A DNA stretch of 32,268 bases from the NCBI GenBank assembly GCA_947178035.1, contig CAMWXA010000004.1, positions 1 through 32,268 of the forward strand, read 5' to 3'. Of this stretch, positions 1 through 29,749 are shown piece after piece (position 1 is the stretch's first letter; every line of letters starts with the position of its first letter). A model generated the notes under the pieces. It saw nothing but the letters and a program-made list of their open reading frames with translations. It had not been told where the DNA came from and did not search any database. Source of the stretch: an uncultured Lachnospiraceae bacterium (GTDB lineage: Bacteria > Bacillota > Clostridia > Lachnospirales > Lachnospiraceae). A program made the translations under genes and the position numbers.

Positions 1-1889
1 AATGCCCTACAGAAACTAACAATATACGACATGGCGGTCACCTGGCTCGTATTTAATTCACTTAAGTTCAACCATGACAGACCCGCGCTCCGATAAAACA
101 TTCTGCCCATATCGGTGACCTGGCTCGTATCAAGTTCACTTAGGTCCAAACTGGTCAGCGATTTACAGTTGCAGAACATCGCCCTGGCATCCGTCATATT
201 ATCTGTATGAAAACAATTATTAAATTGAATCCGCTCTGCATTATCATAAAAAGCAAACAATGAATTTCCGGACCCCGCCCAAACTCCGCCATGTCCGGCG
301 ATATAAAGATCATATTCCGCCTGGACTTTTCCTGATGGCAGGATCCATGCCATGACCAGACCATTCTGATCCTGTGACACATCCCACGCATCATTCGGCA
401 TATCCTTTAAAGTATCAAGAAATGTAATCGACGCAATCGAGGAACGCTCCAAGCCTGCCTTTCCAAGTACCCATACATCTTCCCCGTCTGTCGCTACTGC
501 CTCATCTATATCCGCTACCTTATCCTCCATCAGCACATTTTCGGAATAATCAACTAATTTAGGCCCATTCCCCTGCCATGCTTCTGTTCCCATTTCTCCA
601 TAGTCACTATTTATCAAGGCATTGTTCCCACTCTCTTCATGTTGGCTGTCTGCCGCAATATCATGTCCCTGATCGTTACTATGCAAATCCAGTACACTTT
701 CCTCCGACTTTCCGAAACTCCCCCTTCCCACAACCATTCCCACGACAACACATAACACCGCACACGCTGCTGCTATCGCAATCATTCCTTTTTTCTTCTT
801 CGCTGACTGTCCAGTGCCATCATAAATAACACCACCCCTGTCATCTGATGCCTGCGCCGCCTCTTCTGCCGTATCCCCGGACTCCTGTGTCAGATTCGCG
901 CTCTCACTATTTTCTGTCGTTACCTGTGCAGGTTTCTTTCCATGCTCCTGTATTTGTGTTGATTCCATTTCCTGTACAAGTGCAGGCTGCCCCCCATCAA
1001 TCGCCTGCTCAAACTCCGACATACCCTGGAACCGATCCTCCGCCCGCACTTCGAGCGCTCTTAATATCGCATCTTCCGCCCTGTCTGGCAGCTGCACGCC
1101 GCGGGCGGACAGGGGCACGAGATTGTCCTCCTCCATGCGCTCTAAGGATTCCGGCGGCAGATATCCGCTGAGTGCCGCGTAAAAGCACGCCGCCACGGAG
1201 TACACATCCGTATACGGTCCCTGCTTTCCGCGCCTGACATACTGTTCCTTGGGTGCGTATCCGGGTTTTAGCACGACGTCAAGGCTCCTGCTGCGGTCGC
1301 CAAGGCTGTATCTCGCCGAGCCGAAATCCAGCAGTTTTACCGTGCCATCGTCGGCTATGACAATGTTGTCCGGTGTGACATCGCGGTGAACTAATCCCTT
1401 GCTGTGAACTGTATCCAGCGCTTCCATCACCGGCTGCATGACTCTCCACACATCCTCCCACGGCAGCTTTCCGCCTTTTTGCCTGATGTATGTCTTGAAA
1501 TCAATGCCCTCTATGTAATCCATGACAAAATACGCTGTCGCGTTTTCCTCAAAATACTGCTGCACGCCCACGATATGCGGGTTTCCCTGAAACTGCGCGA
1601 GCACCTTTGCCTCCTCCAGAAAGCGTTCCATGCCAAAGCGAAAATTTTCGGAACGCTCATCCGTGTAAGTCCTGATATCAAGCGATCCACTGCTGCGCAT
1701 TGCCATTGTCTCTGGAAAGTATTCCTTGACCGCGACCTTCGTCTTTGTCTGGTAATCCTCAGCCAGATACGTAATCCCAAAACCGCCCTGCCCCAGGACA
1801 TCCTTGATCATATATTTTCCCGCAAGGATTGTGTCCATTGGCAGCGCCGCCGGATACTTTTCCCATGTTTTCTGCTGGTCATCACTCAT
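1..1889 (-). CDS. Ser/Thr protein kinase (PASTA-less) - TM - BspA/DUF285-type repeat protein, 3' end beyond left window edge
   Basis: Reverse-strand translation by eye: MSDDQQKTWEKYPAALPMDTILAGKYMIKDVLGQGGFGITYLAEDY...VAVKEYFP...HRDVTPDNI...DFGSARYS, then TM (KKKKGMIAIAAACAVLCVVVGMVVG), then DUF285-like motifs (MFCNCKSLTSLDLSELDTSQVTDMGRMFYRSAGLSWLNLSELNTSQVT). No stop before position 1. Not in the supplied ORF track as a complete ORF because it is edge-truncated. Confidence 0.9.
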   Translation of the reverse strand, partial: MSDDQQKTWEKYPAALPMDTILAGKYMIKDVLGQGGFGITYLAEDYQTKTKVAVKEYFPETMAMRSSGSLDIRTYTDERSENFRFGMERFLEEAKVLAQFQGNPHIVGVQQYFEENATAYFVMDYIEGIDFKTYIRQKGGKLPWEDVWRVMQPVMEALDTVHSKGLVHRDVTPDNIVIADDGTVKLLDFGSARYSLGDRSRSLDVVLKPGYAPKEQYVRRGKQGPYTDVYSVAACFYAALSGYLPPESLERMEEDNLVPLSARGVQLPDRAEDAILRALEVRAEDRFQGMSEFEQAIDGGQPALVQEMESTQIQEHGKKPAQVTTENSESANLTQESGDTAEEAAQASDDRGGVIYDGTGQSAKKKKGMIAIAAACAVLCVVVGMVVGRGSFGKSEESVLDLHSNDQGHDIAADSQHEESGNNALINSDYGEMGTEAWQGNGPKLVDYSENVLMEDKVADIDEAVATDGEDVWVLGKAGLERSSIASITFLDTLKDMPNDAWDVSQDQNGLVMAWILPSGKVQAEYDLYIAGHGGVWAGSGNSLFAFYDNAERIQFNNCFHTDNMTDARAMFCNCKSLTSLDLSELDTSQVTDMGRMFYRSAGLSWLNLSELNTSQVTAMSYIVSFCRA

Positions 1890-1994
1890 ATGTTCTTCCT
1901 CTTTTTAGATATACTGATTGATATGTTTTATGACACTACTGCTTTGTCTAACTCTTATTAATTGTCTCATCATTTCTTCTGTATTTTGCGGCTG

Positions 1995-3470
1995 TCAGTT
2001 CATTGGTTTACCATCCTTATATGTTATTTTTTTCGTTCTTCCGTCTGCCCATTTGTATGTTCCATCTCCATTTTTTATTCCATCCTGAAATTTACCCTCA
2101 TACATATCGCCATTCGAATATGTTTCTACCCCATGCCCATTTCTCATTCCATCCTGAAATTCACCCTCATACCAGTCACCGTTAGCATATGTTTCTCTAC
2201 CCTGTCCATTTACAAATTCATTATCCTTAAATTCGCCTTCATACCAGTCACCATTGGCATAAATATATTTTCCCTGACCATTCTCTTTGTCAATACTCCA
2301 CTCCCCATCATAAATATCCCCACCGGCATAGACATATTTTCCCTGACCGCTCTTTCTGCCATATCTCCAACTGCCGCTGTACGCATCTCCATCGGAGTAG
2401 ATGATGGTTCCATATCCATGCATATCGCCATTCTCAAAGTTCCCACTATATACACCAATGTCATACTCACGCATGTGCCAGCCGTTTCTGTATGAATGTA
2501 TGATAGCTGCTATGACATTACAGATACTAAAATGTTTTTTCACCTTATTATTCGGCGCCTGCTGCGGTTTCTGTGCCAGTATTGCCTGCTTAAATTCTGC
2601 CATTGTCTGATATCTGTCCCCGGCACAGACTTCAAGCGCTTTTATGATCGCATCTTCTGCTGTCTGGTCAAGCCTGACTCCGCGCGCCGATAACAACACG
2701 AGATTGTCCTCCTCCATGCGGTCTAAAGATTCCGGCGGCAGATATCCGCTGAGTGCCGCATAAAAGCACGCCGCCACGGAGTACACATCTGTATATGCTC
2801 CCTGCTTTCCGCGTCTGGTATACTGTTCCTTCGGTGCATAACCCGGTTTTAGCACCACATCAAGGCTTCTGCTGCGGTCGCCAAGGCTGTATCTCGCCGA
2901 GCCGAAATCCAACAGTTTTACTGCGCCGTCCTTTGAAATAAAGATATTATCCGGTGTCACGTCACGGTGGACCATGCATTTCTGATGCACGGCGTCGAGT
3001 GCATCCATGACCGGGGACATGATCTTCCACACCTCTTCCCATGGCAGCTTTCCGCCGTTTTGCCTGATGTATGTTTTGAAATCAATACCATCGATGTATT
3101 CCATTACAAAATATGCCGTGCCGTTCTCCTCGAAATATTTCTGCACGCCCACGATATGCGGGTTTCCCTGAAACTGCGCGAGAACTTTTGCTTCTTCAAG
3201 AAAGCTGTTCATACCGAATCTAAAGTTGTCAAGGCGTTCGTCCGTGTAGGTCCTCACTTCAAGCGAAGGCGTGCTGCGCATTGCCATTGTTTCAGGGAAA
3301 AACTCCTTTACTGCGACTTTCGCGTCTGTCCTGTACTCCTCTGCCAGATAAGTGATCCCAAATCCGCCCTGACCTAATACATTTTTTATGATATATTCAC
3401 CTGCAAGGATCGTGTCCATCGGCAGTGCCGCCGGATATTTTTCCCATATATTTTGTACATTTTCACTCAT
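1995..3470 (-). CDS. Ser/Thr protein kinase with C-terminal MORN repeats
   Basis: Supplied ORF 1995..3491; preferred start MSENVQ at 3470 preceded by AGGTGGGCAA. Kinase motifs GQGGFGITYLAEE, VAVKEFF, HRDVTPDNI, DFGSAR; C-terminus has tandem MORN motifs (NGQGKYIYANGDWYEGEF, NGHGVETYSNGDMYEGKF). Confidence 0.93.
   Translation of the reverse strand: MSENVQNIWEKYPAALPMDTILAGEYIIKNVLGQGGFGITYLAEEYRTDAKVAVKEFFPETMAMRSTPSLEVRTYTDERLDNFRFGMNSFLEEAKVLAQFQGNPHIVGVQKYFEENGTAYFVMEYIDGIDFKTYIRQNGGKLPWEEVWKIMSPVMDALDAVHQKCMVHRDVTPDNIFISKDGAVKLLDFGSARYSLGDRSRSLDVVLKPGYAPKEQYTRRGKQGAYTDVYSVAACFYAALSGYLPPESLDRMEEDNLVLLSARGVRLDQTAEDAIIKALEVCAGDRYQTMAEFKQAILAQKPQQAPNNKVKKHFSICNVIAAIIHSYRNGWHMREYDIGVYSGNFENGDMHGYGTIIYSDGDAYSGSWRYGRKSGQGKYVYAGGDIYDGEWSIDKENGQGKYIYANGDWYEGEFKDNEFVNGQGRETYANGDWYEGEFQDGMRNGHGVETYSNGDMYEGKFQDGIKNGDGTYKWADGRTKKITYKDGKPMN
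2010..2440 (-). repeat. Tandem MORN-encoding repeats, roughly 69-nt period
   Basis: Recurring + strand phrases 'ccatcctgaaattyaccctcatac..atcgccattcgaatatgttt' encoding repeated [Y]xNGDxYEGxFxDGxxNGxG units. Confidence 0.8.
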
Positions 3471-3528
3471 TTGCCCACCTTCTCTTCTCATGTGTGTTGA
3501 TTCATAGCTTTATTCCTGCCCTGCCGTA

Positions 3529-4902
3529 TCAAAACTGCCTGAATTCATTTTGCGCAAACCCGGTCCTCACCTCATTATGAATATCCCCGAGGTAAAAGCT
3601 CTCTCCCGCTTTTAGATAATAAAGTTTCCCGGGAGTCAGGCGGATGCCATTTTCCAGAAACGTACCATAGGAGGAATCCATATCCGCAAGGATAAACCCA
3701 TCTCTGACATCATCCCAGATCAGTGTGCAGTGAAGCCTGCTTACGCCGGGAGTGCCGTCACCATACAATACGTGGCACTGCTCCGCATCTCTTCCAAAGC
3801 AGATCTGACGCCCGTTCAGCGGGATTTGGATGCCGCCCTGATGTCCCGACAACGGGCAGACTGCCGGAATTTTAGGCGGCGCGTACTTATAATACTGCAG
3901 CTTAAATTCTTCCATAAGCTCCAGTTTATCACCGATCCCGCACGCAGGCATGCTGCCCGCGGTATGCAGGGCATACTCAAAATAATCCAGTAATATTTTT
4001 ATGTCCTTTCTATCCAAGTTTTTATCTGGATTTCTATCCGGGCTTCCTGTTTCCATACCTTGCATCACGCTGTTGATATCTTCTGTCAGGATCTCGAGCC
4101 ACTTCACAAGCGCACCTTTCATATGACTCTCTGCTGCCGCTTCGCATAACATCCGGCGCATCCTGCGGTCACTTGACAATGTATGCAAAAAATCATAGAG
4201 TGCGCCGATATCGGGCGCTGTCGGGGACGCTGATGTAAACAGGGTTTTTCCATATCCCACGATATCGTTTCCGTAGTCTTCCAGCAGATATTTCGCACTC
4301 CTTTGCACATGTGCCAAATCCTCTGCCGTGTTCAACAAATCAATCCTGTTAATGACATACACTACATTTCCACCCAGCATATCCTGCAGTTTTTCCAGCG
4401 TCATTTTCTCATACCATGATCCAAACTTATTGGCATCAAATATAAGAATTGCAAGGTCGCACTGTTCCAAAGCCCGCATCGTTATCTCTGTAAGCTCCGG
4501 TGTATCCTCAAGCCCGGGTGTGTCCCAGATCTCAACTTCACCTGCCTCCCCCAGCAGCTTTGAGTCACACCTGACAGCGATCCTGACCGGCTGGCTGATA
4601 TCCGCATCGATCTCTCCCAGAATCAGTTTGTCTCTTTCTTCAGCAGTAATTTCTACCCTGGTTCCATCTTCCAATACCCTGTAACAGCGCTCACCCCTTT
4701 CGATCTGCGTCACAAGTCTTGTCGCAGTGACAGCCTGAACAGGAAGGTCAAGGCCAAACAACAGATTGATCAATGAAGTCTTACCTGACTTGAATTTCCC
4801 GCATATGGCAATCCTCATGGATCTGCACTGTTGTTTTCCCGACCGGTATGCACTGATCGTCCGTCTGAAATCTTCGTGCTTTTTTATCATGCCCTCCTGC
4901 AT
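3529..4902 (-). CDS. Dynamin/Era-like GTPase with C-terminal FHA domain
   Basis: G1 GKFKSGKTSLINLLFG, G3 DTPGLED, G4 INRIDLL; C-terminal FHA-type signature ICFGRDAEQCHVLYGDGTPGVSRLHCTLIWDD...LADMDSSYGTFLENGIRL. Confidence 0.88.
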   Translation of the reverse strand: MQEGMIKKHEDFRRTISAYRSGKQQCRSMRIAICGKFKSGKTSLINLLFGLDLPVQAVTATRLVTQIERGERCYRVLEDGTRVEITAEERDKLILGEIDADISQPVRIAVRCDSKLLGEAGEVEIWDTPGLEDTPELTEITMRALEQCDLAILIFDANKFGSWYEKMTLEKLQDMLGGNVVYVINRIDLLNTAEDLAHVQRSAKYLLEDYGNDIVGYGKTLFTSASPTAPDIGALYDFLHTLSSDRRMRRMLCEAAAESHMKGALVKWLEILTEDINSVMQGMETGSPDRNPDKNLDRKDIKILLDYFEYALHTAGSMPACGIGDKLELMEEFKLQYYKYAPPKIPAVCPLSGHQGGIQIPLNGRQICFGRDAEQCHVLYGDGTPGVSRLHCTLIWDDVRDGFILADMDSSYGTFLENGIRLTPGKLYYLKAGESFYLGDIHNEVRTGFAQNEFRQF

Positions 4903-4903
4903 T

Positions 4904-5452
4904 TCAGCGCCCCTGCAGCAGGCTGACTAGCGCCTTTCCGAGCGCGTCTACCTGTGCCCTGTATTTATCTCCTGTCCGATGCCATATCTCCTGTTTTTTG
5001 TTCTGATACAGTTCCCTGACAATCCCCACAGTCATCATGCCAAGCAAAACTGCAGCCAGCAGCATAATCAGCCTGACATCAAGGATCCTGCCCAGAAATG
5101 ACCGGCTCGCAAGAAGATATCCCAGAGATGCACCAGCCAGGCAGACAACACACTCGCCTCCAACATATGGAACCACTGACGGCAGTTCGGGGCTCTCAAT
5201 CTCGGTGAATGTAAAATCAGCCAATTTCTTTTGAAATGCATCAGCCCGCTCTAAATCTTCACGCTGCAGGCGCTTTATAAACTCATACTCCGCAGAAAGA
5301 GAATCCGACCACTTTCCTGTCAACGCATAATAGGACTGCTGCAGTTCGTTGCAGGATATTCCATCCGCTTTCTTCTCCTGCAGGATGATCGCCGAATCGA
5401 TCTGCTTTTTCTGCTGCTCCCACAGTACGTCAAAATCACTTGCCACTCCCAT
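4904..5452 (-). CDS. Small membrane protein with a TM hairpin and flanking coiled-coil-like segments
   Basis: 182 aa ORF abutting the downstream GTPase-FHA gene; two hydrophobic stretches (VVCLAGASLGYLLAS; LIMLLAAVLLGMMTVGIV). Confidence 0.75.
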   Translation of the reverse strand: MGVASDFDVLWEQQKKQIDSAIILQEKKADGISCNELQQSYYALTGKWSDSLSAEYEFIKRLQREDLERADAFQKKLADFTFTEIESPELPSVVPYVGGECVVCLAGASLGYLLASRSFLGRILDVRLIMLLAAVLLGMMTVGIVRELYQNKKQEIWHRTGDKYRAQVDALGKALVSLLQGR

Positions 5453-5490
5453 CTATTTCCCCGCTTTCTTTGATCAAATAATAACTATGA

Positions 5491-7584
5491 TTACGCTGTT
5501 GCATCTGTCTTCCTGGTCATTGCGGCAAGTTTGTCAAGACGGCTTTCCTGCAGGGATTTGCCATATACCAGTTGGTACACCTGCGCTACGTTCTGGAACA
5601 GTTTACCGTATATCCCTTCCCTGCGCTGCATCTCCTGTCTGCACGCACTCTCCGAGTGGTTTCTCTGATTCAGGATCTCCTGCATCTCTCTTTTCTTGTC
5701 ATCCAGCATGCCAGATGCAGTGGCACACAATATGTCGCTTTGCCCGCTGAACTGTTCCCTGATCGTACTCTCAACTGTCGGAATCTGCTCCTCAACTTTC
5801 TTCCGGATCTCAGGGAAAATATTTGCAGCGATATTGTCTAAGATCTGGTCCCTGCGCTTTGACGAATTTGCCTGAATCTGAACCGCCTCCACGATCAGTG
5901 CCACGACAACTGCCGTCCCGCCTGTAAACATACTGAGAATGGTCAGGTTGATGATCGCCTGGACAATGTACTTTTTAATGAAATCTCCCCAGCTGAAATT
6001 GCCGCCCGCCGCATTGTCCACGGCAACGCTGAAATCTCCCTGGATCAGACTGAGCGCAAGCTGCAGCTTGTTCGCCCCTCCACCGGAGCCTGCGCTCGCT
6101 TTCACCCCTGTAAACTTTGAAAGGATATTATCCATTTTGACACTGAATTCCTGCGTGCGCGAATCGAGTTCCGCCTCCATATCCTCCAGGTCATCCTTGA
6201 TCAAAATATTGACCGTCTTTCCCCACTGGCTCATCTCATCCTCGATAAAATCATTGACAAATTCCACAAGTGGACGGAGAATCTCTGCGCGCTTTTTTTC
6301 ATTTCTGGTCACAGCGACTTTGACCATTTCAACCATACCAAATTTCTTGTCACACAGCGCCAGGGCCGCAGGCCATGCCGCTGGTATTTCCGTACTCACA
6401 AACTGTCTCAGACTGCTCACTATTTTCGTCGTGACATTGTCGCAGGTTTTCATGATCACTCCGCGCATTCTCTCCAGGTCAGACTCCAGTTGTTTCAGTT
6501 CCTGTTCAGCCCTGTTATAATTTTCATTCAATTCTTTATATGGCACTTTCATGGCGTGCTCCTGAAGTGAATTTTTGCGCCGCACTTCAAGACAGCTGGC
6601 GGCCATGCAGGAGATTATAGGCTGATAGCGCGCTATGATCCGGTCCTCCGATGTCAGAAATTCTTCCAGTGCCTCCTGGAATTCCACCATTCCTGTGTCA
6701 TATGGCACCCTGCCCGCCTTTCTCTCCTGCAGTGCCTTGTAGGCATTGACATAAAATACCCGTTTTTCCATCAGTCTTGCATCAAAATATCCATTATCGT
6801 CCGTAAAGACAGGTTTTAAATGGGCCGATGCCGATTTCCTGACAAGCTCCTGATCCTGTATGGTATTTAACTGGTTAAAGCGGTTGACCAGAAAAAATAC
6901 ATTTCTTGGCACTGTGTCTGCATATTCAAAATGTATTTTGACGTATGCTTTTTCCTTTTCCGAGAACAGTTTTGTAGCATCCAGCAGAAAAATGATCGCA
7001 TTTGCCTTTGGCACAAAATTATCCGTTGTCTTTGTTCTCGCGGAAGCCTCCTCCAGCCCCGGTGAGTCAATAAATTGAACACCGTCTTTGAAGAGTGGGA
7101 GATCGCTCTGCATTTCCACATACTCTATATCTGAAAAGCGATCAAGCTCCCCTGTGTTCTCAATAATCTTTTCATCCTCCTCAGTCAGCTGATACTGCTG
7201 GAAAAACGCCTGCAGTGTCAGGATCTCTGGTTCTTCTTTTCCTGTGCGGTAAATTCTGACATGCTCCTTGTCTACTCCATAACCGACCTGACTGATCACA
7301 GCTGTGGCAGCTGTAGCTTTCGCCGGAAGCATCTCATTTCCAAGAATCGCATTGATCGTAGTGCTCTTTCCATTTTTGAAGGTTCCCATAAACAGGGTAC
7401 GGAACATGCTGTCTCCTAAACGCTGTGATTCATCCCGCATTGCCTTTGATTCTGTTTCCATCCCCTCAATCCCAGCCTCGATACCGTCTACCATGCTGCC
7501 CGTTTTCTTTCCGATGAGTACTGCGCTCTTCTTTGCAAGTCCCTGAATTTTCTTTGCCTTCTCTTGTTCTTCATGAAATCCCAT
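5491..7584 (-). CDS. Dynamin family GTPase
   Basis: 697 aa; G1 GTFKNGKSTTINAILGNEMLPAKATAATAV, G3 DSPGLEE, G4-like LVNRFNQL, coiled-coil, hydrophobic segment AIINLTILSMFTGGTAVVVALIVEAV, C-terminal helical region. Confidence 0.9.
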   Translation of the reverse strand: MGFHEEQEKAKKIQGLAKKSAVLIGKKTGSMVDGIEAGIEGMETESKAMRDESQRLGDSMFRTLFMGTFKNGKSTTINAILGNEMLPAKATAATAVISQVGYGVDKEHVRIYRTGKEEPEILTLQAFFQQYQLTEEDEKIIENTGELDRFSDIEYVEMQSDLPLFKDGVQFIDSPGLEEASARTKTTDNFVPKANAIIFLLDATKLFSEKEKAYVKIHFEYADTVPRNVFFLVNRFNQLNTIQDQELVRKSASAHLKPVFTDDNGYFDARLMEKRVFYVNAYKALQERKAGRVPYDTGMVEFQEALEEFLTSEDRIIARYQPIISCMAASCLEVRRKNSLQEHAMKVPYKELNENYNRAEQELKQLESDLERMRGVIMKTCDNVTTKIVSSLRQFVSTEIPAAWPAALALCDKKFGMVEMVKVAVTRNEKKRAEILRPLVEFVNDFIEDEMSQWGKTVNILIKDDLEDMEAELDSRTQEFSVKMDNILSKFTGVKASAGSGGGANKLQLALSLIQGDFSVAVDNAAGGNFSWGDFIKKYIVQAIINLTILSMFTGGTAVVVALIVEAVQIQANSSKRRDQILDNIAANIFPEIRKKVEEQIPTVESTIREQFSGQSDILCATASGMLDDKKREMQEILNQRNHSESACRQEMQRREGIYGKLFQNVAQVYQLVYGKSLQESRLDKLAAMTRKTDATA

Positions 7585-7606
7585 TGTTTTTCCTCCTTAG
7601 TTTGTA

Positions 7607-9247
7607 TTAATGTACGTTTTGCAGATCTGCAGTTACCTCTGCTGCCTTTGCCAAAAAGCGGTCCCTGTCTTTTGCCTGTTGTCCGCATTGCATTTTCAAG
7701 GAATCCTCCACCTTGACAAACTGCGCATGTGTCCACTGCGTGATCTCGCTCTCCATCTCCTGCAGTTTCGCATTGATTCCTTCTTTCATGCATTTTAAAA
7801 TCTGTCTTTCCTGAAGCGTCGCTTCTTTCATAAGTTCCTTCCTGAACTGCTCCTTTTCCTCCTGCTGGTTCATCTTACTCTTGATTCCTATGGCTGCAAA
7901 TGCCAGTCCGGGCAGCAGTGCACCAGCGACACCTGCAATCGCTCCTGCTGCAATGAAAATTACAGGAAGCGCCTCACTGTCGAGCAGCCCCTTTTCACGC
8001 CGGGTTATACTGCCGGGGATTTGGGGCAAAGCTGCTGTCATTCCAACTGTCGCAAAAGCCCTATCCAGATCATTGTCAATCGTCGGAGCAATGTCCGGGT
8101 TCCCGTTCTGGACAAGCACTCCCGTGACATGTTCCTTCAAATCCTCCCACAACACCTGATTGATAGAATCGGCTTCCGCAGCAGACCACTTTGCAAAATC
8201 AACTTTAAGGTATCTCTCCCACTCTTCCATTAGAAAGGTCATGATACGATCAGCCAGTTCCGACAGATCATTCTCCCCGATAATTCTCTGCTCCAGCTCC
8301 TGCTGCAAAGCGACATCAAATTCTTCCATTTTATGATGCATCTTCTGCTGAAGTTCCCTCAAATGATAAATCCGTATCCTCCGGCAGAAATCCTCCTCTA
8401 CCTTTCCCAGACTCTCGCCCAGCAGCTGCAGCCTGTCAATGATCTCCTGTTGCTCTGCCGCCTGCCTTGAATATGACTCTGCTTCACGGCAAAGCACTTC
8501 TTCCAGCCTGGAAAGCTGCAGCTGCACTCTGCGCTCATCACGCCTCAAGTGCACTGTCTGTGTTTCCCTGCATCCCTCAAAAAGATGCTGACATACCTCA
8601 TCTATCTGATCCGTAATCTGTATGCCATTGGGAAATTGTCTCTCAAATGCATCCACGCTGCTGCCGATATGTACTTTGTCTTCGTCCACCGTGATCAGTT
8701 CCATCTCTCCAATGTAAAAGATATAATCTGTAGAATCATAGTACTTCTCCATTTCCGCCGAAAATCCCCGCTCCAGGGAGCAGAGTAACTTTGTCGCTGA
8801 CAATGCAACACACCATCTGTCAATCCCCCAAAATGCCGTCTTCCACTGTTGTCCTTCCCGATCCTCCTCGATGGATTTTAACAGTACATCAGCCATTTTC
8901 AATGTCTCGCACGGACACTCCACCTTTGTCTCGATCCGCGATTCTTCTATACCATGATCCGTCAGTCCCGACATGTACTCATGCCACAGATCCTCCCCCA
9001 CGGCTTTCCATTCCCCATCTGCCGATCTTATGTAAAATACTGATCTTTCCCCATACGACAAGAAAATATCGTAGGGACGTCCGACGATCCCCTGCAAAAA
9101 AGTATCGATTCCAAATATCTTCCCTGCAAACCGTATCGGAGCCATCATCATTCCAGTTATTCCAATCTGACAGTTGTGATCGTCACCTGTCGCCCCGCAT
9201 TCGAGACCATACTTTTTGAGAAGCTTCTTTTTTTCAATTGTTTCCAT
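7607..9247 (-). CDS. Dynamin-like protein with probable degenerate (pseudo) GTPase domain
   Basis: 546 aa; coiled-coil/hydrophobic hairpin/coiled-coil layout like the adjacent dynamin (LPVIFIAAGAIAGVAGALLPGLAFAAIGI). The N-terminal part looks like a GTPase fold without G1/G3/G4 residues (CVALSATKLLCSLERGFSAEMEKYYDSTDYIFYIGEMELITVDEDKV vs IIFLLDATKLFSEKEKAYVKIHFEYADTVPRNVFFLVNRFNQLNTIQDQEL in the neighbour). CDS itself certain; pseudo-GTPase assignment is inference. Confidence 0.7.
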   Translation of the reverse strand: METIEKKKLLKKYGLECGATGDDHNCQIGITGMMMAPIRFAGKIFGIDTFLQGIVGRPYDIFLSYGERSVFYIRSADGEWKAVGEDLWHEYMSGLTDHGIEESRIETKVECPCETLKMADVLLKSIEEDREGQQWKTAFWGIDRWCVALSATKLLCSLERGFSAEMEKYYDSTDYIFYIGEMELITVDEDKVHIGSSVDAFERQFPNGIQITDQIDEVCQHLFEGCRETQTVHLRRDERRVQLQLSRLEEVLCREAESYSRQAAEQQEIIDRLQLLGESLGKVEEDFCRRIRIYHLRELQQKMHHKMEEFDVALQQELEQRIIGENDLSELADRIMTFLMEEWERYLKVDFAKWSAAEADSINQVLWEDLKEHVTGVLVQNGNPDIAPTIDNDLDRAFATVGMTAALPQIPGSITRREKGLLDSEALPVIFIAAGAIAGVAGALLPGLAFAAIGIKSKMNQQEEKEQFRKELMKEATLQERQILKCMKEGINAKLQEMESEITQWTHAQFVKVEDSLKMQCGQQAKDRDRFLAKAAEVTADLQNVH

Positions 9248-9388
9248 AACATTCTCCTTTCATAATTTTATTCATAATTGCCCTGCCATCTCCACCATAA
9301 CAGAAAGACTATCCAGCTCTTGAAATCTGCTTCCGCAAGAATATTTATTCTCAGCTGTTGATTCCTTGTCTTCCCATTGTTCTATATT

Positions 9389-9417
9389 ATTATATCGGTT
9401 TTTCGTGGTATGTGCAA
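9389..9417 (-). promoter_or_regulatory. Sigma70-type promoter of unit A
   Basis: Minus strand TTGCAC-17 bp-TATAAT (plus gtgcaa 9412-9417, attata 9389-9394), about 140 bp upstream of the 9247 start codon; spacer nearly identical to that at 20545-20573. Confidence 0.75.
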
Positions 9418-9513
9418 TGTTTTTCCGTTTGATTCAGGTTTGACACTCTAATTTTGTGTTACCGTTCACTCCAAGTTAAGCAAACCCTCTGCCAAATTTC
9501 CTGATATGGTTCC

Positions 9514-9549
9514 AAAAAAATGCCCTGCAGCGCGTCCGCTGCAGGGCAT
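9514..9549 (-). terminator. Intrinsic terminator of unit B
   Basis: Perfect 13-bp inverted repeat atgccctgcagcg/cgctgcagggcat (9520-9532/9537-9549), 4-nt loop, followed on the minus strand by seven T's. Confidence 0.92.
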
Positions 9550-9578
9550 GTAAATCTTCTCTTATTCTTCTTCCCTCG

Positions 9579-9794
9579 TCAGTTGTCCGATATCCCTTTC
9601 CTGACAAATTCTTCCCCACCGATACTGTAGGTCCTGAACGATCCGGTAAAGTTACCCTTGTCATCCAGATATGTATACAGCAGGATTTCCAGATCTGACT
9701 CTCCACCAAAACCGTCATCATCTTCCCAGTAACGGCCATCCGGCTGGATTTCCCACACCATCCTCTGGATTCTTAAATTTTCTCCTTTCCTCAC
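9579..9794 (-). CDS. Small hypothetical protein (possible GTG start overlapping the upstream stop as GTGA)
   Basis: 71 aa ORF (WEIQPDGRYWEDDDGFGGESDLEILLYTYLDDKGNFTGSFRTYSIGGEEFVRKGISDN) between lipoprotein gene and terminator; start uncertain. Confidence 0.55.
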   Translation of the reverse strand: MRKGENLRIQRMVWEIQPDGRYWEDDDGFGGESDLEILLYTYLDDKGNFTGSFRTYSIGGEEFVRKGISDN

Positions 9795-15434: not shown

Positions 15435-17144
15435 TTACCCGATCAGCACATTTTTGCCCTCGAAAGCAAAACCGTATTTCCGTATGCGCTCTGGCAGAAA
15501 TCCTTTTGCCTCCAAAACTTTCGCATACTGTTTTTCCTCAATCTGGGACAGTGCCGCCCTCACAGTTTCCTCCAGGTCTTTCTCCTTCTGCGGACGATGA
15601 ACTTTAAACTCCATGATGATCGCATCATCTGTCTCATTCCCTTTGACTGGCTCGAGCATCACATCATAACGCCCAAATCCGCTTTCCCGGTTGGAAGTGA
15701 TCGTGTACCGGTCTGACAGATCCACCATCAGTCCCAGCACAAACCCGTGATAAAACCGCTCCGGCTGGGATTTTTTAGAGGGATGCCTGCCAGTGTCAAA
15801 GCAGCTGAAGGTCTCCACCGCAACATTGTTCATGTATTCATTCATCGCATCAAGATCGCCCTGCAGCAACGCTTTGAGAAAATCATTGTACTCTGGCGCA
15901 TACTTTTTAAACCAGCCCCTGATCATATTCCAGAACATGAGTTTTGTCTCCATATTTGTAATTTTCAGATCATATTCCTCTTCGCCGGTTTCCTTGTTAT
16001 TTTGATGTTTTTCCACCCTCAGATACCCGCTTGCAAGCAGCAGGCTCCAGATCGCATACTCGTTGTGGTCAAGCTCGTTAAAAACGATCTGTTCATCAAT
16101 CTTTGTGTGGAGCGTGCCGCCATTGAGCAAGTCTTCCATAATGATCTTTACGTCCCTGCTTCCCTCGCGGATCAATTTTCCGACCAGACTGTTACTGCTT
16201 GTGTTGGCCCAGTAAGTTGAAAATTTCTTCTCATCAAGGAAATTGATAATGGACCATGGATTGTAAATATCTGACTGATTTCCAAATGTAAAACCATCAT
16301 ACCATTCCCTGACGCCCGCTTCCATATCAGACATATGATATTCCGCCAGCGCACTGGAAACCTCTTCCTGCGTAAAGCCAAAAGAAGCTGCATATTTTTC
16401 TGAAGTCGTTGTCACCACTGCCAGATTGTTTAAATCCGAAAATATGGACTCTTTACTAATCCTTGTAATCCCTGTCATCAGCGCCTTCGCAAAATGCTGG
16501 TTTGTCTTGAAAGTCGCATTGAACAGATTTCTGATAAACACGACGATTTCGTCCCAATATCCGTTTACATAGGCTTCCTGCATCGGCGTATCATACTCGT
16601 CGAGCAGAATGATCACCTTTTTATTGTAATACCGATGCAAATAATCACTGAGCCTGTGGAGGGATATCGCTGCGTCTGTCACAGACATTCTGTCGGAAAC
16701 ACTGTCAAAATATTCCCTCTCTCTGTCTGTCAGAACATTACTATCCCTCAGAAAATGATGCCGGCTGTACAAGTCTGCCAAAATCTGGCAGATCTGTATC
16801 TTCGTTGTCTCAAACGTATTCTCCTTCACATTGGCAAAGCTCAGGCTGATCACCGGATAGGTTCCCTGCAGCTGTCTGTACGGATACACGCCATCCGCAG
16901 ACTTTTCATTCCATATACGCATCTTTTCAAACAGATCACTCCGTCCTTCATAATCAACAGAAAAAAACTGTTCGACCATACTCATATTGAGTGTTTTCCC
17001 AAAACGCCTTGGGCGGGTGATCAGTGTCACGCTGTCAAAATTCTCCCACCATTCCCTGATAAAATCGGTTTTGTCGATATAAAAACCGTTATTTTCAATG
17101 AGCTCATCGTAACACTGATGCCCGATTCCGACCACTCTCGCCAT
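15435..17144 (-). CDS. AAA-ATPase-like protein with C-terminal PD-(D/E)XK nuclease-like domain
   Basis: ORF 15435..17186; preferred start MARVVGIGH at 17144 with AGGAGACGGGG RBS. Walker A RPRRFGKTLNMSM, Walker B KVIILLDEYDTPMQEAY, C-terminal YDVMLEPVKGNETDDAIIMEFKV. Confidence 0.87.
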   Translation of the reverse strand: MARVVGIGHQCYDELIENNGFYIDKTDFIREWWENFDSVTLITRPRRFGKTLNMSMVEQFFSVDYEGRSDLFEKMRIWNEKSADGVYPYRQLQGTYPVISLSFANVKENTFETTKIQICQILADLYSRHHFLRDSNVLTDREREYFDSVSDRMSVTDAAISLHRLSDYLHRYYNKKVIILLDEYDTPMQEAYVNGYWDEIVVFIRNLFNATFKTNQHFAKALMTGITRISKESIFSDLNNLAVVTTTSEKYAASFGFTQEEVSSALAEYHMSDMEAGVREWYDGFTFGNQSDIYNPWSIINFLDEKKFSTYWANTSSNSLVGKLIREGSRDVKIIMEDLLNGGTLHTKIDEQIVFNELDHNEYAIWSLLLASGYLRVEKHQNNKETGEEEYDLKITNMETKLMFWNMIRGWFKKYAPEYNDFLKALLQGDLDAMNEYMNNVAVETFSCFDTGRHPSKKSQPERFYHGFVLGLMVDLSDRYTITSNRESGFGRYDVMLEPVKGNETDDAIIMEFKVHRPQKEKDLEETVRAALSQIEEKQYAKVLEAKGFLPERIRKYGFAFEGKNVLIG

Positions 17145-17213
17145 GTATCCCCGTCTCCTTTCTCCGCAGCCTGGCTGATCTGCCAATCCGCCCGCTGATA
17201 CTCATATAGGTCT

Positions 17214-17483: not shown

Positions 17484-18518
17484 CTACTTGTGTAACTTTC
17501 TGGCTGTCCATCTCAAAATCCTCTCCCTCGCCTTTATTGCATCTATTCTGTTTATCAGCTTAGTCGGCTCTGTTTTCCGCCAGATAATTTTTCCTGCTAT
17601 CCTTCTGTCATTTTTATTTTTAAATCTAAGGCGTTTCCATCCCTGCAGTGACTGTACCCATATTTCCACGCAGTTCATACGTCTCGATAAAACCACTACT
17701 TCCCTTGATATCACCGCAAAAATTAAGATACCCCTGAAAGGATCCCCAAATATGTAGATCAATGCCAAGATATCTGCGATCAGCGCGAAAATCAGTCTCC
17801 CCCTGGTCGATTCAGCATCCTCCTTTACGTCCTTTATCTCATCATAATATATCGTTGCCCCCTGATCTTCCACGTATTTGCCAAATACCAGTCTGTCCTC
17901 ATAAAACCTCAATGTTTCATATGACTTTTCTTTTCTGCAGTCGGTTTCATAGATCACAGGGCATTTTGCACAATCTTCCCTTTCATTCCGGACATTCCTT
18001 ACCATCCGCCTTGGCCTTGTCAGTACGATATACCTCAACAGGTTACAGTCTGCAATGAGGTCAGTCTTGAATAAATAAGTGTTTTTGCAGTTTTCACGGC
18101 TTACTCGTATGATGATCTTACCTACAGGACCAAAATGATGTGATACCCCCATGATCACACCCACGAAGCCAAGGAAGCAGCCAAAGATCAGCGTTCTGGC
18201 CATCCAGACTGGTATGTGCGCCATCAGATTCTGTAAAACAGCCAAAAACACACATGAACAGATTCCCATTCCTGCCATCATTTTTATCACTCCGCCGCCC
18301 CCGGCTTCCAGTATCTTCACCTCCCTGTATGGTATCTCTATCTGCAAGCCGCCATGATCGGGTGCAAACAGCATTCTGTCATGATAGAAACGAAGCCTTC
18401 CATGTTCACGATGATGCGCTTTTTTGTCTACATCAGAGCGGCTCGTCTCCTCCATCCATCCTTCCATACCCATAATGTAACAGTCGGGATACATTTGCCA
18501 TGCAGTCCTATTGTCCAT
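17484..18518 (-). CDS. Membrane protein with internally duplicated PH-like/LRFY..DR..F module
   Basis: 344 aa; LRFYHDRMLFAPDHGGLQIEIPYREVKIL and LRFYEDRLVFGKYVEDQGATIYYDEIKDV each followed by hydrophobic segments. Confidence 0.75.
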   Translation of the reverse strand: MDNRTAWQMYPDCYIMGMEGWMEETSRSDVDKKAHHREHGRLRFYHDRMLFAPDHGGLQIEIPYREVKILEAGGGGVIKMMAGMGICSCVFLAVLQNLMAHIPVWMARTLIFGCFLGFVGVIMGVSHHFGPVGKIIIRVSRENCKNTYLFKTDLIADCNLLRYIVLTRPRRMVRNVRNEREDCAKCPVIYETDCRKEKSYETLRFYEDRLVFGKYVEDQGATIYYDEIKDVKEDAESTRGRLIFALIADILALIYIFGDPFRGILIFAVISREVVVLSRRMNCVEIWVQSLQGWKRLRFKNKNDRRIAGKIIWRKTEPTKLINRIDAIKARERILRWTARKLHK

Positions 18519-18686
18519 ACAAACCTCCTTATTTAACTTTTGAAATTCTGATTAAAATCTCATCCGCCGTCATCCCATACAAAAGTACCCCTGAAAATAT
18601 ACAGCTTTCTGCCTCGGATGGAGCACGAATACAGCGTCACACAAATATCAGTCACTGTTTTTCACTGTTATTTAGACAATGCTGCA

Positions 18687-19055
18687 CTAATTTGTGATCC
18701 ACCCGTTCCCTTGACAATACCTGCAGTCCGCCTCGCCGGTTCCCCCACATAAATCACACCGCGTGGTCGTCTTGTACAGTGTCGAGCCCTGTCCAAAGTC
18801 GATTGGATAATGCGTCTTCTGTAGTCCCCCCTGCCCGTCACAAGCAGGACATCTCCGCTTCCCAGCACCATCGCAGACTGAACATTTTGTCTCCTTCTTT
18901 GTCTGCAAATATCCTGATGTGGCTGACATATCTGTATATGTCGCGGTGCTGTTATTGGGAACCACTATCTGGGTTGCTGGTTTTTCATCATCCTGGTATG
19001 CCCACCAGATGACCAGCAGGGCAACGACTAATATTGCAGCTTTTTTCTTATCCAT
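18687..19055 (-). CDS. Membrane-anchored DnaJ-type CxxCxGxG cysteine protein (no J domain)
   Basis: Preferred start MDKKKAAILVVALLVIWWAY at 19055; CSVCDGAGKRRCPACDGQGG...CDLCGGTGEADCRYCQGNG. Confidence 0.82.
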   Translation of the reverse strand: MDKKKAAILVVALLVIWWAYQDDEKPATQIVVPNNSTATYTDMSATSGYLQTKKETKCSVCDGAGKRRCPACDGQGGLQKTHYPIDFGQGSTLYKTTTRCDLCGGTGEADCRYCQGNGWITN

Positions 19056-19134
19056 ATTGATCCCCCTTTCCTTTCCGACAATTTGTTTGCCGCTGACATA
19101 CACAGTATATCAGATTCGGTTTATCCCCGCCTTC

Positions 19135-20139
19135 CTATCTTTGTCCTGTTCCTCCGCAGGTAGTGCAGGTTCCGTCAGTACACTTCGTACAATCCTGATA
19201 CCCATACCCATTAAAGAACTGATGTGATCCATGACACATCCAGCACTTCTTTGAACCGTTGCAGGATGGGCATGGCGAAGGAACGGGCTCATAACTATCT
19301 ATATATGCTTTTGCCTCGTCAATCTCCATGCGTCGGATCTCCGCATCGCTGTATCCCATCCGGCACCATATATCGTGCCTTTTCTCTGTCCATGCCTCCT
19401 GTTCCTCATTATAATCAGGATTGAACATCATACCAAAAGTGCAGTGCGCGCAGATCTGATATCCATCCCTGCAGTCCGAACAGGGGACAAAGGCCGAAAA
19501 CATGGTAATTCCTGGAATTGCCTGCCTTCCGCTGCCATTGCACGACTCACAACGTTTATCCAATTTTCCATCTCCGCCGCAATAGGTGCACGGAATTGTC
19601 ATGGACGGCTTGTTATTCATAAGTTCGCGCATTTCTGCATTCAGTGCATCCCTGCCCGCCAGGCCGGAATTGTCCGAAACAGTATTTTGCTGCGTGCCGC
19701 TGCATATTTTGCAGTTTCTCCCGCCACATTTCTGATAGGTAAAGGACGCTGCAAAAAAGGCATAAAAACCATTCGAAAACCGATATCCGATATTCTGAAT
19801 ACTTCCCGAAACAGTTATTCCATACTCCCTTGTCTCTCCCGGTGAAAGCACAATTCCCTCCAGACTGGCATCATCCATATACACTGTAAACGCATAATTT
19901 CCGCTGCTGTCATAGACTGAGAGTTCTGCATCCTCAAGTTCGTAGATATCATACGTATCACTGGTATTTCCGATAGATCCCGATATGTTGACCTGTTTCT
20001 CATCCCAGGTCATCTCAACCGGATAATAGACCAGACAATTATTGATATCAGCCTGCGCCGCCTTGGCATCGATCCCCATTCCTGTCATCATGATCACCGC
20101 CATAAAAATTCCCAGCCACATTTTCCATCTTGCTTTCAT
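19135..20139 (-). CDS. Secreted protein with multiple DnaJ-type CxxCxGxG zinc-binding motifs
   Basis: 334 aa; signal peptide MKARWKMWLGIFMAVIMMTGMGIDAKAAQA; CTYCGGDGK..CESCNGSGR..CSDCRDGYQICAHC..CPSCNGSKKCWMCHG..CTKCTDGTCTTCGGTGQ. Confidence 0.85.
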   Translation of the reverse strand: MKARWKMWLGIFMAVIMMTGMGIDAKAAQADINNCLVYYPVEMTWDEKQVNISGSIGNTSDTYDIYELEDAELSVYDSSGNYAFTVYMDDASLEGIVLSPGETREYGITVSGSIQNIGYRFSNGFYAFFAASFTYQKCGGRNCKICSGTQQNTVSDNSGLAGRDALNAEMRELMNNKPSMTIPCTYCGGDGKLDKRCESCNGSGRQAIPGITMFSAFVPCSDCRDGYQICAHCTFGMMFNPDYNEEQEAWTEKRHDIWCRMGYSDAEIRRMEIDEAKAYIDSYEPVPSPCPSCNGSKKCWMCHGSHQFFNGYGYQDCTKCTDGTCTTCGGTGQR

Positions 20140-20183
20140 ACATTTTCCTCCATTTCCTGTAAAATTTAAATAGTTTTTGCGCT

Positions 20184-20492
20184 TTACGCAAATTGGTTCA
20201 GGTATCTTCCCAGCTGCTCCCGCACCTGCAGGTCATCCGTATTCATGTAATCTGCGAGCATCCCTATATAGGACGCCCTGTCTACGGGAATGCTTCCCCC
20301 TGAAAACAACTGGTGGTACAAAAAGAAACTATCCTCGTCCCCCAGTTCGATCGCTTTGTGCAAAAAGATACGGCACAAATCCCTGTCAGTACCGCTTCCT
20401 CCCTCTGACAGAGGCAGCGCGAGCTGTCTCCACGCGGCCGCTTCCCCGCCCAACGCCTGAATGAGCAGCTTTTTTACCCTATCCTCCATCAC
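20184..20492 (-). CDS. Small hypothetical protein, first gene of unit C
   Basis: 102 aa ORF MMEDRVKKLLIQALGGEAAAWRQLALPL..., helical repeat-like; sits just downstream of promoter at 20545-20573. Confidence 0.65.
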   Translation of the reverse strand: MMEDRVKKLLIQALGGEAAAWRQLALPLSEGGSGTDRDLCRIFLHKAIELGDEDSFFLYHQLFSGGSIPVDRASYIGMLADYMNTDDLQVREQLGRYLNQFA

Positions 20493-21695: not shown

Positions 21696-22475
21696 CTACA
21701 TCCCCATACTCTCATAATGCCGGATCCCTCTCTCAAACACGAGCCTCGCCAGAAGAAAAAACGTAACGCTGATCCCGAACATAGCTGCCGCAAAGAGCAG
21801 TTGGTGCTCTCCCCTTAAGATCTGAACGGGAACCACGCAGATAAACGCGTAAGGAATCACAAAAGACAATACGAACCGCACTGCTCCCGGATAAATCTGC
21901 ACCGGGTATTTTGCATACTGTCCGACACTTGCAGCGACATATGGAATCGTCGTCCTGCCTCCGGAATCATACCAGAATGCAGTGCAGTTTCCGATCAGGT
22001 AAACAGACATGCACAGAATCGTACCACACACAACAAAAAACAGGCTCATGAGAATCGTTTTGACACTCAGCACATCAAGCCTCGCAAGCAGAACAAACAG
22101 GCTCACGGTTCCCACGCCAAGGGAACTGATCCCCTGCAGCCCCATTCCATACGAAAGCACCTGAAACAACGGCGAGACCGGCCTGGACAATACCGCGTCA
22201 AACTGCCCGTCAAATATCATGGCAGGTATATCCCATATTCCCTGAAAGAAAACACTGCAGTTTCCTTCGGCAATGAACAGAAACGACATGATCAGAAAAA
22301 TCTCATCCCGCTTCCAGCCGGCTATATCCGGAATATAGCTGTATATGACAAAAGGCACCGCCATACTTAGTACTTTTGTAAGAATGCCTGAAACGAGCAT
22401 CATCCAGAAATTGAACGTGTACTCCATCTCCGTTTTAATATACTGCTCTTTCATTTTCATAAAAATCCTGATCAT
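21696..22475 (-). CDS. ABC-2 type transporter permease
   Basis: 259 aa with multiple TM segments; paired with second permease and ATPase. Confidence 0.88.
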   Translation of the reverse strand: MIRIFMKMKEQYIKTEMEYTFNFWMMLVSGILTKVLSMAVPFVIYSYIPDIAGWKRDEIFLIMSFLFIAEGNCSVFFQGIWDIPAMIFDGQFDAVLSRPVSPLFQVLSYGMGLQGISSLGVGTVSLFVLLARLDVLSVKTILMSLFFVVCGTILCMSVYLIGNCTAFWYDSGGRTTIPYVAASVGQYAKYPVQIYPGAVRFVLSFVIPYAFICVVPVQILRGEHQLLFAAAMFGISVTFFLLARLVFERGIRHYESMGM

Positions 22476-22478
22476 GTC

Positions 22479-23273
22479 TCACCCTCCCGCGATTGTCATG
22501 TTTTTGCGCGCACAGCCGTAAAGCAGGCTGTGAAGCAGCACCAGAATGGCCAGCCAGACAAGCTGCATTCCCAAAATCTGCACAATCCCCATACTGGTAT
22601 CGTCTCCCAGCAGCACGGAGACAGGAACCTGGATCATATACGGAAACGGCGTAAAACGCGCAACGTTCCCCAGCCACTCCGGAAACATTGCCACAGGAAT
22701 CATCGCACCCGAAAAGAAGTCAAAGAGCGCCGCCCGCGTCCACGAAATCCCCAGATAACCCGTAGAAAAAAAACACAGAAGACTGAAAACATCGATCATC
22801 ATGATGCGGAGCAGCACTGCCAGAATGACACAGGGTACGAAGCCCGCCACAGCGGCTGCTGATGGAATTTCCATGTACGCCCCGAAAAAAACAACCCCCG
22901 CCAGAACCACCAGAAAGTTCACCAGCGCCTGAAAAGCCAGCGCCCCCGTCATCTCGGATACAGCCTGCACCAGAAACGGAACCGGGCGGATGCATCTGGC
23001 GACGACCGTACCGTTTCGTATCTCCTTCGCCAACACGTTTTCGGAGGACCAGCCCAGCAGATTATTCAGGGAAAATGCGATCAGAATATACGTAAACATC
23101 TCCCGCTGCGTCATGGAACCAATCGTCCCGCCCTGCTGTCCGTACAGCGCGCCCCACAGCATGTACTGCCCGCAGAGCAGCACAACCGGGGAGAGCAGAT
23201 TCAGCAGAAAACTCGTCTTGTAATACAAATGACTCTGCAGGGAAATCGAAGTAAGCCTGAAAAAAGATTTCAT
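22479..23273 (-). CDS. ABC-2 type transporter permease
   Basis: 264 aa, multiple TM segments; overlaps/abuts the ATPase gene. Confidence 0.88.
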   Translation of the reverse strand: MKSFFRLTSISLQSHLYYKTSFLLNLLSPVVLLCGQYMLWGALYGQQGGTIGSMTQREMFTYILIAFSLNNLLGWSSENVLAKEIRNGTVVARCIRPVPFLVQAVSEMTGALAFQALVNFLVVLAGVVFFGAYMEIPSAAAVAGFVPCVILAVLLRIMMIDVFSLLCFFSTGYLGISWTRAALFDFFSGAMIPVAMFPEWLGNVARFTPFPYMIQVPVSVLLGDDTSMGIVQILGMQLVWLAILVLLHSLLYGCARKNMTIAGG

Positions 23274-24250
23274 GCGTCTTCCCCCTTTTGAAAAATTCTG
23301 GAAACCACCTCATCGATATCGGGTTCCTGGATGGTAATATCCTCAATCTCAAATGCGCTCGTAACAGCATGCAGCACCTCCTCCGAGGAATACTGCCCCG
23401 GCTGGTAGACCACCTTGGTCGTCCGCCCCTCCGCTGAGACTCTCGCTCCCGGAAGCAGCAGCCGTATCTCCTGACGCGGTCTCCCCGTCACCCGCACCAT
23501 TTTTTCCGTCACATACCGGTGCTTTAACTGATCCAGCGTTCCGTCATAGATCAGCTTCCCTTTTGACAGCACAACCGCATCGTCACAGATTTCATCAATA
23601 TCGTCCAGATCATGACTGGTCAGCAGAATACCCGTACCCTTTTCCTGATTCATTTTCCGCAGAAAAGTCCGGATCGTATGCTTCACATTGATGTCCAGAC
23701 CAATTGTCGGCTCATCCAGAAAAAGCAGCTTCGGTTCATGTAGAAAAACCATTCCAATATCCGCCCGCATTCTCTGTCCCAGCGAAAGTTTTCTTGCGGG
23801 GGACGACAAGAGTGGTTCCAGCTCCAGCAGTCCGACGATCTGCTCCAGATTTCTTTGAAAAACCTGCCGATCCAGCCGGTATAACGTCTGTACAGCCTGG
23901 TAGCTCTCGATCACGGGAATGTCGATCCACAGATTTGATTTCTGCCCAAACACCACCCCGATCTCTCTTAGATACGGCCTTCCAGCCTTCCTGGGATCCT
24001 TTCCAAACACGCTGACCTCCCCCGCAGTCGGCGTCAGAATGCCGATCAGCACCTTGATCAGCGTTGATTTTCCGGCTCCGTTTTCACCGATGCACGCCAG
24101 CGCCTGTCCCTCATGCGCCTGAAAAGAGATCCCTCCGATCGCTGTCTTTTCCGTCCATTCCGAACGAAACAGATTCTGCACGGCTCCCATCATTCCCGGT
24201 TTCTTTACATTCACGCGATATACCTTTTTCAGTTCCTTTACTTCGATCAT
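23270..24250 (-). CDS. ABC transporter ATP-binding protein
   Basis: Start MIEVKELKKVYRV at 24250; Walker A GENGAGKSTLIK, signature LSLGQRMRADI, Walker B LLFLDEPTIGLD, H-loop LTSHDLDD. Confidence 0.95.
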   Translation of the reverse strand: MIEVKELKKVYRVNVKKPGMMGAVQNLFRSEWTEKTAIGGISFQAHEGQALACIGENGAGKSTLIKVLIGILTPTAGEVSVFGKDPRKAGRPYLREIGVVFGQKSNLWIDIPVIESYQAVQTLYRLDRQVFQRNLEQIVGLLELEPLLSSPARKLSLGQRMRADIGMVFLHEPKLLFLDEPTIGLDINVKHTIRTFLRKMNQEKGTGILLTSHDLDDIDEICDDAVVLSKGKLIYDGTLDQLKHRYVTEKMVRVTGRPRQEIRLLLPGARVSAEGRTTKVVYQPGQYSSEEVLHAVTSAFEIEDITIQEPDIDEVVSRIFQKGEDA

Positions 24251-24269
24251 ATACCATTTCCCTTTACAG

Positions 24270-26087: not shown

Positions 26088-26200
26088 ATCTCTCCCCCAC
26101 ATTCAAGAATTGTTAAATTATTCTGCTCAATTTACCCAGTTGTTTCTGCAGTTTCATCTTTCCTTCTCAGACCCGCTTTCGTGGCTAAATCATATCACTT

Positions 26201-26710: not shown

Positions 26711-26789
26711 CCTGTCATGTCTCCTATATTGCTAAATTCCTTACACACACTCTCTCCTCTGCACCAGAGCCCCTTCTCCCCTGCTCTCC

Positions 26790-26885: not shown

Positions 26886-26894
26886 CGTGTGCAT

Positions 26895-26928: not shown

Positions 26929-26955
26929 AAGCTGCGAAACCGTCACTGCAGATTC

Positions 26956-29734: not shown

Positions 29735-29749
29735 GTTGCTCCTCCTCTC

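Follow-up and report, generated by a model that had tools for sequence, protein, structure and literature searches.

A dynamin-family locus linked to Ser/Thr kinases and an FHA-GTPase in an uncultured Lachnospiraceae bacterium

The genomic stretch analyzed here (the window) spans 32,268 nucleotides and is one whole contig (C4) of the 76%-complete genome of an uncultured Lachnospiraceae bacterium, which comprises 4.4 Mb in 557 contigs. Positions 1-9417 carry six collinear, tightly packed genes on the minus strand, transcribed in the order P06-P05-P04-P03-P02-P01, which bring together three dynamin relatives, a small membrane protein and two Ser/Thr kinases. These genes might encode a dynamin device of several subunits, located at the cell membrane and controlled by phosphothreonine, a proposal to which we give about an even chance. 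Comparative genomics supports the putative chain on which this proposal depends, leading from kinase to FHA-GTPase to dynamin.

Genes and transcription of the six-gene unit

The intergenic gaps, read from P06 to P01, measure 22, 38, 1, 37 and 105 bp, and the compact array described in an earlier, sequence-only reading of this DNA is real. A terminator scan of the unit found no strong terminator within the six genes, and inner matches to the promoter consensus are weak; the total of the promoter scan (25 versus 17.3 expected) exceeds that of shuffles only moderately. Upstream of P06, a sigma70-like site (TGCACA-N16-TATAAT; 9389..9416, minus strand) is defined purely by its match to 10 of 12 consensus positions, and an intrinsic terminator-like site (9520..9549, minus strand; stem of 13 bp, T run) separates these genes from P10, P09 and P08. 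Because of the terminator at 9549-9520 and the promoter-like site at 9416-9389, P06-P01 likely form their own transcription unit, starting between P08 and P06. The genes P10, P09 and P08 make up a second unit that adjoins it. An open reading frame at 9476-9739 was rejected as a gene because it has no family match and overlies the terminator.

Three of the encoded proteins, P03, P05 and P06, are relatives of dynamin. P05 (5491..7584, minus strand) fits the description of a bacterial dynamin-like protein, in which a P-loop GTPase is combined with a helical neck and trunk bearing a membrane paddle. It contains Dynamin_N (Pfam E 2e-19) and PF21808, an intact P-loop (GTFKNGKS at residue 67) and a hydrophobic segment (547-565), and it aligns near full length (residues 52-665, E 1e-39) with Nostoc BDLP1 (2J68). 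P03 (3529..4902, minus strand) has the GTPase part of this description, with a dynamin-family domain at residues 1-245 (Dynamin_N, Pfam E 2e-15; P-loop GKFKSGKT at 35) that also matches the Campylobacter Cj-DLP chain 5owv_C. There is no hydrophobic segment in P03, and it thus lacks the helical trunk with a membrane paddle. A short linker leads to a C-terminal FHA domain (351-445; Pfam E 9e-10) whose conserved phospho-binding residues are present (GR at 370, SRLH at 388, SSYGT and ENG), such that binding is predicted. Homology to a trunk-bearing ortholog in genome G633 ends at about residue 302, after which the FHA domain follows. The FHA-GTPase fusion recognized in the sequence-only reading was therefore correctly identified.

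P06 (7607..9247, minus strand) is probably a conserved dynamin-like pseudo-GTPase with a long helical stalk and a hydrophobic segment (422-440). The P-loop (GxxxxGKS/T) is absent from the versions of this protein in all four loci, namely the window and genomes G633, G147 and G250, and P06 has no Pfam dynamin match. Single-sequence searches of Pfam and PDB would allow the conclusion that P06 is not a dynamin, but a four-member profile (the window protein and its positional equivalents from three loci) speaks against this, since its alignment with a dynamin profile begins in the GTPase domain and reaches the stalk (hhalign 96.4%, E 1.4e-9). LeoBC helical models match the G147 and G250 versions of P06. 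The structure model of P06 is of low confidence (pLDDT 55.6) and poor in the N-terminal domain; it has a stalk of long helices, and dynamins account for several of the top PDB neighbors found with Foldseek, at weak E values of 0.015-0.06. Leo profiles match all three dynamin types of the locus, partly and mostly weakly, and give no ortholog assignment to LeoA, LeoB or LeoC. The sequence-only reading had counted a pair of dynamins, and P05 stands as a dynamin and P06 as a relative, but P03 raises the count to three and P06 has no P-loop. Between P05 and P03 lies the gene for P04 (4904..5452, minus strand), the small protein already noted for its transmembrane (TM) hairpin. It has 182 amino acids and two TM helices, and its position is kept in G633 (52%), G147 and G250.

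Downstream of P03 are two genes whose description as Ser/Thr kinases with DUF285 and MORN sequences holds. P01 (3..1889, minus strand) has a kinase domain (Pfam E 7e-33), a TM segment (369-387) and extracellular DUF285/PARCEL repeats (E 3e-10); its C-terminus is lost at the contig end, where the frame is open. P02 (1995..3491, minus strand) joins its kinase domain (E 8e-34) to six MORN repeats (E 2e-31). Catalytic residues are intact in both predicted kinases (VAVKE, HRDVTPDN, DFG). The P01 kinase domain is 80% identical to that of P02 and 53-58% identical to those of three cluster kinases in G147; overall, the cluster kinases of the window and G147 share 50-58% identity, a level that drops to 38% or less in comparisons with other kinases. 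The three G147 kinases lie in tandem (G147:C138, L042:2-5364), with kinase domains that are 75-79% identical and differing C-termini (DUF6273, multi-TM). This trio and the MORN/DUF285 pair of the window suggest that kinase domains have been kept alike while sensors were swapped.

Orthologous loci and the PP2C-FHA cassette

Four orthologous loci were found, those of the window, G633:C15, G147:C138 and G250:C11, apparently all from one family; G147 belongs to the same family as the window genome and to another genus. (G147:C138 is also listed as G1152, with identical coordinates and score.) In G633, a metagenome-assembled genome (S34M_St_66, Clostridia), the order is P10-P09-P08, then a helix-turn-helix (HTH) protein, a small protein and an M48 peptidase, then P06-P05-P04-P03 and a 290-aa protein; its P03 has the hydrophobic trunk and no FHA domain, and no cluster-type kinases were seen at the locus. 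G250 has an M48 peptidase, a pseudo-dynamin, two dynamins, the TM hairpin protein and a GTPase without FHA, with no kinases nearby. In G147, P09-P08 are followed by a toxin-antitoxin-like pair and an HTH gene, then by M48, pseudo-dynamin, dynamin, TM hairpin and GTPase/FHA. The same contig continues with a 189-aa protein, PrsW/FHA, FHA, PP2C, trypsin/FHA, PP2C, vWA/FHA and the three kinases. A GTPase-domain tree groups the P05 proteins of the four loci in one clade (100/100) and the P03 proteins in another (100/99), both separate from two other multi-dynamin lineages; the joining of G147 and G250 inside the P03 clade is uncertain (long branches).

A search for conserved neighborhoods had been proposed as a check on the six-gene unit, and it was passed, with G147 showing the same order on one contig and the dynamin core recurring in G633 and G250. 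The proposal that writers, reader and effectors constitute one unit is partly supported, by the gene linkage and by the GTPase-FHA that accompanies kinases in G147. The cores of G633 and G250 have neither FHA nor such kinases. FHA and kinases are thus present together in the window and G147 and both absent in the other two loci, a pattern that, with four loci, is no more than suggestive.

The earlier statement that no PP2C phosphatase is visible in the window is correct and probably reflects an edge effect. At the end of contig C27, also from the window genome, lies a truncated TM-MORN protein that probably represents the C-terminus of a third kinase; next to it come, in order, FHA, PP2C, trypsin-FHA, PP2C and vWA-FHA. 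This block has the G147 order at 39-49% identity, and its PP2C and trypsin motifs are intact. No P01/P02-type kinase domain occurs on any other contig of the window genome, so the third one is missing from the assembly; a contig break caused by near-identical kinase domains is plausible. Dynamin-free FHA/PP2C/kinase sets also exist at other places in G000 and G147, and contig C270 has a kinase-PP2C pair of its own.

The FHA domain of P03 is 51% identical to that of the C27 trypsin-FHA protein and 39-41% identical to the FHA of G147 P03; the latter shares 61% identity with the adjoining PrsW-FHA. Because the FHA domains of P03 are closest to those of their own cluster, FHA domains have probably been exchanged or re-acquired inside each cluster. 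Such exchange suggests that the GTPase and the membrane proteases read similar phospho-marks.

The system is rare: about 1% of the genomes sampled from the family have it. A search for P06 was positive in a single genome among 299 of the family. The P05 profile (E<=1e-25) matched 3 genomes in a set of 391 from the class and 5 in a set of 397 from the family, the latter number including other dynamin lineages. The locus is absent from G196, the sole other same-genus genome searched. Profiles of P09, P05 and P10 had no match in IMG/VR, and tblastn against plasmids gave only distant dynamins and kinases.

Neighboring genes and other dynamin lineages

The upstream unit, also on the minus strand, contributes a candidate receptor. 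P09 (11077..14040) consists of a kinase domain, a NACHT/STAND-like NTPase (GSGGAGKT, LLDGLNE), a TM segment and an extracytoplasmic domain, and is 54% identical to its G633 counterpart. Its predicted kinase carries the HLD/DYN variants (HLDISPDN, IDYN) and retains the Lys and both Asp residues. The gene for P08 (9791..11080), a lipoprotein with the lipobox VTGC, shares 4 bp with that for P09, and the P08-P09 pair is kept in G633 and G147. P10 (14174..15367) is a 397-aa predicted helical protein, possibly a regulator, and a gene with 62% identity occupies its position in G633; the structure model of P10 is too poor for use (pLDDT 48).

An AAA-ATPase_like plus PDDEXK_9 protein, possibly associated with mobile elements, adjoins the cluster at 15435-17186. 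A minus-strand block of open reading frames (344, 138, 334 and 102 aa) follows at 17484-20492, and the two that were scanned have no significant Pfam match. Positions 21696-32046 form an unrelated sugar-utilization region, with ABC-2 transporter genes, a GH35 beta-galactosidase, a DUF3502 protein, a permease and a LacI regulator.

Three separate multi-dynamin locus lineages exist in Clostridia. A second lineage, at L040 (G980:C84), L039 (G925:C46) and L100 (G273:C36), comprises a repeat-rich acidic protein, a protein of ~180 aa and two or three dynamins. In G980 this set is preceded by a weakly kinase-like protein of beta-lactamase fold and by a second such protein whose N-terminus appears PP2C-like by eye. 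The third, at L101 (G258:C14) and L028 (G428:C30), has three dynamins, and its M48 peptidase is a relative of the ones in G633, G147 and G250. At L024 (G460:C2), a dynamin cluster with several stop codons is followed by a gene resembling the AAA-ATPase_like/PDDEXK_9 gene of the window. Searches around G588 and G460 gave no further relatives.

Proposed mechanism, alternatives and related systems

The sequence shows the domain architectures, the intact catalytic and binding residues, the conserved gene order and the presence of FHA on the GTPase in both kinase-bearing loci. The inferred scheme adds targets of phosphorylation, recruitment through the FHA, assembly into a complex and, as the output, protection of the envelope, possibly in phage attack. 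The sensor kinases P01, with its extracellular repeats, and P02, with MORN, might detect an envelope signal together with the linked kinase-STAND receptor P09 and the lipoprotein P08, and the kinases would phosphorylate threonines, either their own or those of a partner protein. Through its FHA domain, P03 would dock on phosphothreonine, which would bring its GTPase to the site; there P03 could control how P05 assembles with P06, its probable pseudo-GTPase partner, and with the hairpin protein P04 in the membrane. Such an assembly may tether, seal or remodel the membrane, and the PP2C phosphatases (on C27; contiguous in G147) would switch the device off. By analogy with DynA, which supports membranes during phage infection (PMC8844932), and with Cj-DLP1/2 (PMC6104087), the likeliest output would be envelope protection or sealing, perhaps in phage attack. 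A more detailed version, to which we give somewhat less than an even chance, is that the GTPase subunit exchanged its membrane-binding trunk for FHA and is recruited to the membrane by sensor-kinase phosphorylation that PP2C reverses. It would then belong to a three-dynamin device for membrane repair or immunity, one of whose subunits is a conserved pseudo-GTPase.

A phosphothreonine-controlled device is favored because G147 encodes the GTPase-FHA, orthologous kinases and PP2Cs in order on one contig, because the C27 block repeats that order, because P05 and P03 fall in ortholog clades and the FHA is nearest to those of its own cassette, because the FHA-less GTPases of G633 and G250 sit in kinase-free loci, and because P05 matches BDLP1 within six packed genes that have no strong internal terminator. 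Several observations weigh against it. The FHA-kinase correlation comes from four loci, and the G633 contig ends 0.8 kb past the cluster. The dynamin half and the kinase/PP2C/FHA half occur together in two loci only, and the M48 peptidase of the other three cores is absent from the window cluster. No sequence overlap joins C4 to C27 or to other contigs checked, so that their adjacency is presumed. Furthermore, the G147 ortholog of P05 (L041:10201-12339) has lost the P-loop lysine (GFSAGTST for GKS) and may have lost GTP hydrolysis, with the P-loop of the neighboring FHA-GTPase kept, and the G147 pseudo-dynamin frame (L041:12426-14054) has an in-frame TAG (114 + 421 aa), which could reflect gene splitting, a nonsense mutation or a fault in the assembly. 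Either GTP use varies between subunits, or the G147 copy is decaying.

The same genes might instead serve anti-phage defense, with phage-triggered kinases resembling those of PD-T4-6, MADS6 or KKP activating the dynamins, such that lysis is delayed or the cell is killed by membrane disruption (abortive infection). This explanation appears unlikely, although it draws on several matches: the kinase domains score highly against the PADLOC PD-T4-6 and mad6 models (E around 1e-50), the dynamins match Leo models, one PP2C matches the candidate PDC-M21C, the distribution is patchy and rare, DynA delays phage lysis (PMC8844932) and KKP provides phage defense (PMC11341870). The kinase matches are generic, however, and membership in MADS was rejected since the score lies far below the NCBIfam cut-off for MAD6 (137 versus 460 bits). 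Also, no integrase or tRNA was seen, sugar-utilization genes lie farther along the contig, IMG/VR gave no match to the P09, P05 and P10 profiles, and plasmids gave only distant relatives. That two independent cassettes are simply adjacent seems rather improbable. The kinase/PP2C/FHA set would then have other targets, such as the trypsin-FHA and vWA-FHA envelope proteins, and the FHA of the GTPase would be a passive fusion. The kinase- and FHA-free cores of G633 and G250, the dynamin-free sets in G000 and G147 and the location of the FHA-PP2C block on a different contig are consistent with such independence, but the GTPase-FHA fusion occurs in both kinase-bearing genomes and is closest to cassette FHAs, the same juxtaposition exists in two genera, and in the window a kinase gene begins 37 bp past P03. 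Only a small chance is given to a kinase-controlled role of the membrane device in housekeeping or development, such as in division, sporulation or the formation of vesicles. Division in Firmicutes is under the control of PASTA kinases, but a PASTA domain is lacking in the cluster kinases, and a kinase-PP2C pair exists separately on C270. Bacterial dynamins can act in division, as Streptomyces DynA/B do according to a citation in PMC6104087, but the locus is found in about one in a hundred family genomes and is missing from G196.

Parallels to the phosphothreonine-controlled device proposed here can be drawn from several known systems. In most cases, bacterial dynamins work in pairs that are encoded in one operon and tether membranes (PMC6104087). 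Adjacent, unequal dynamins of one operon are a feature shared with Cj-DLP1/2 (Campylobacter jejuni; PMC6104087), Nostoc BDLP1 (2J68) and LeoABC. The present locus differs by its three members (one without a P-loop), TM hairpin protein, GTPase-FHA, linked Ser/Thr kinases and, on the same contig in G147, PP2C; the word "kinase" is absent from the Cj-DLP paper (PMC6104087). KKP unites two kinases, PP2C and FHA in one locus (PMC11341870), a combination that the proposed device would share, but its PP2C is followed by a CSD-kinase and an FHA-kinase, it resides on prophages and it has no dynamin. Membership in KKP was rejected because here FHA is on a dynamin-family GTPase, the kinases carry MORN or DUF285, and P05, P09 and P10 have no viral match. 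DO-GTPase/GAP1-N2 conflict systems (PMC7159879) resemble the proposed system in placing kinase, PP2C and vWA genes beside a central GTPase, but their GTPase is of another family, PMC7159879 does not mention dynamin, and no GAP1 was identified here. The Bacillus subtilis DynA (PMC8844932) is a membrane-protecting dynamin, and an analogous output is proposed here. DynA differs in being a single fused dynamin. We know of no kinase/FHA set linked to it.

No genes for a type VI secretion system (T6SS) were seen in the window. PppA is part of the T6SS PpkA-PppA-Fha pathway. There, a kinase, PP2C and FHA protein steer a membrane machine via threonine phosphorylation (PMC3953482 for kinase and Fha), which resembles the arrangement predicted here; the output of that pathway is the T6SS, whereas the output of the window locus would be dynamins. 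In open-licence full-text literature, no such system of dynamin with FHA, PP2C and kinases in operons was found described, nor any paper linking bacterial dynamins to Ser/Thr kinases and FHA readers.

As we read the field, the cues for when and where bacterial dynamins act are largely open. The locus displays a conserved pseudo-GTPase partner of dynamin, and natural variants with and without FHA and kinases make the phospho-control of dynamin directly testable. Overall, the locus suggests that membrane remodeling or sealing in this bacterium may be switched on and off by protein phosphorylation.

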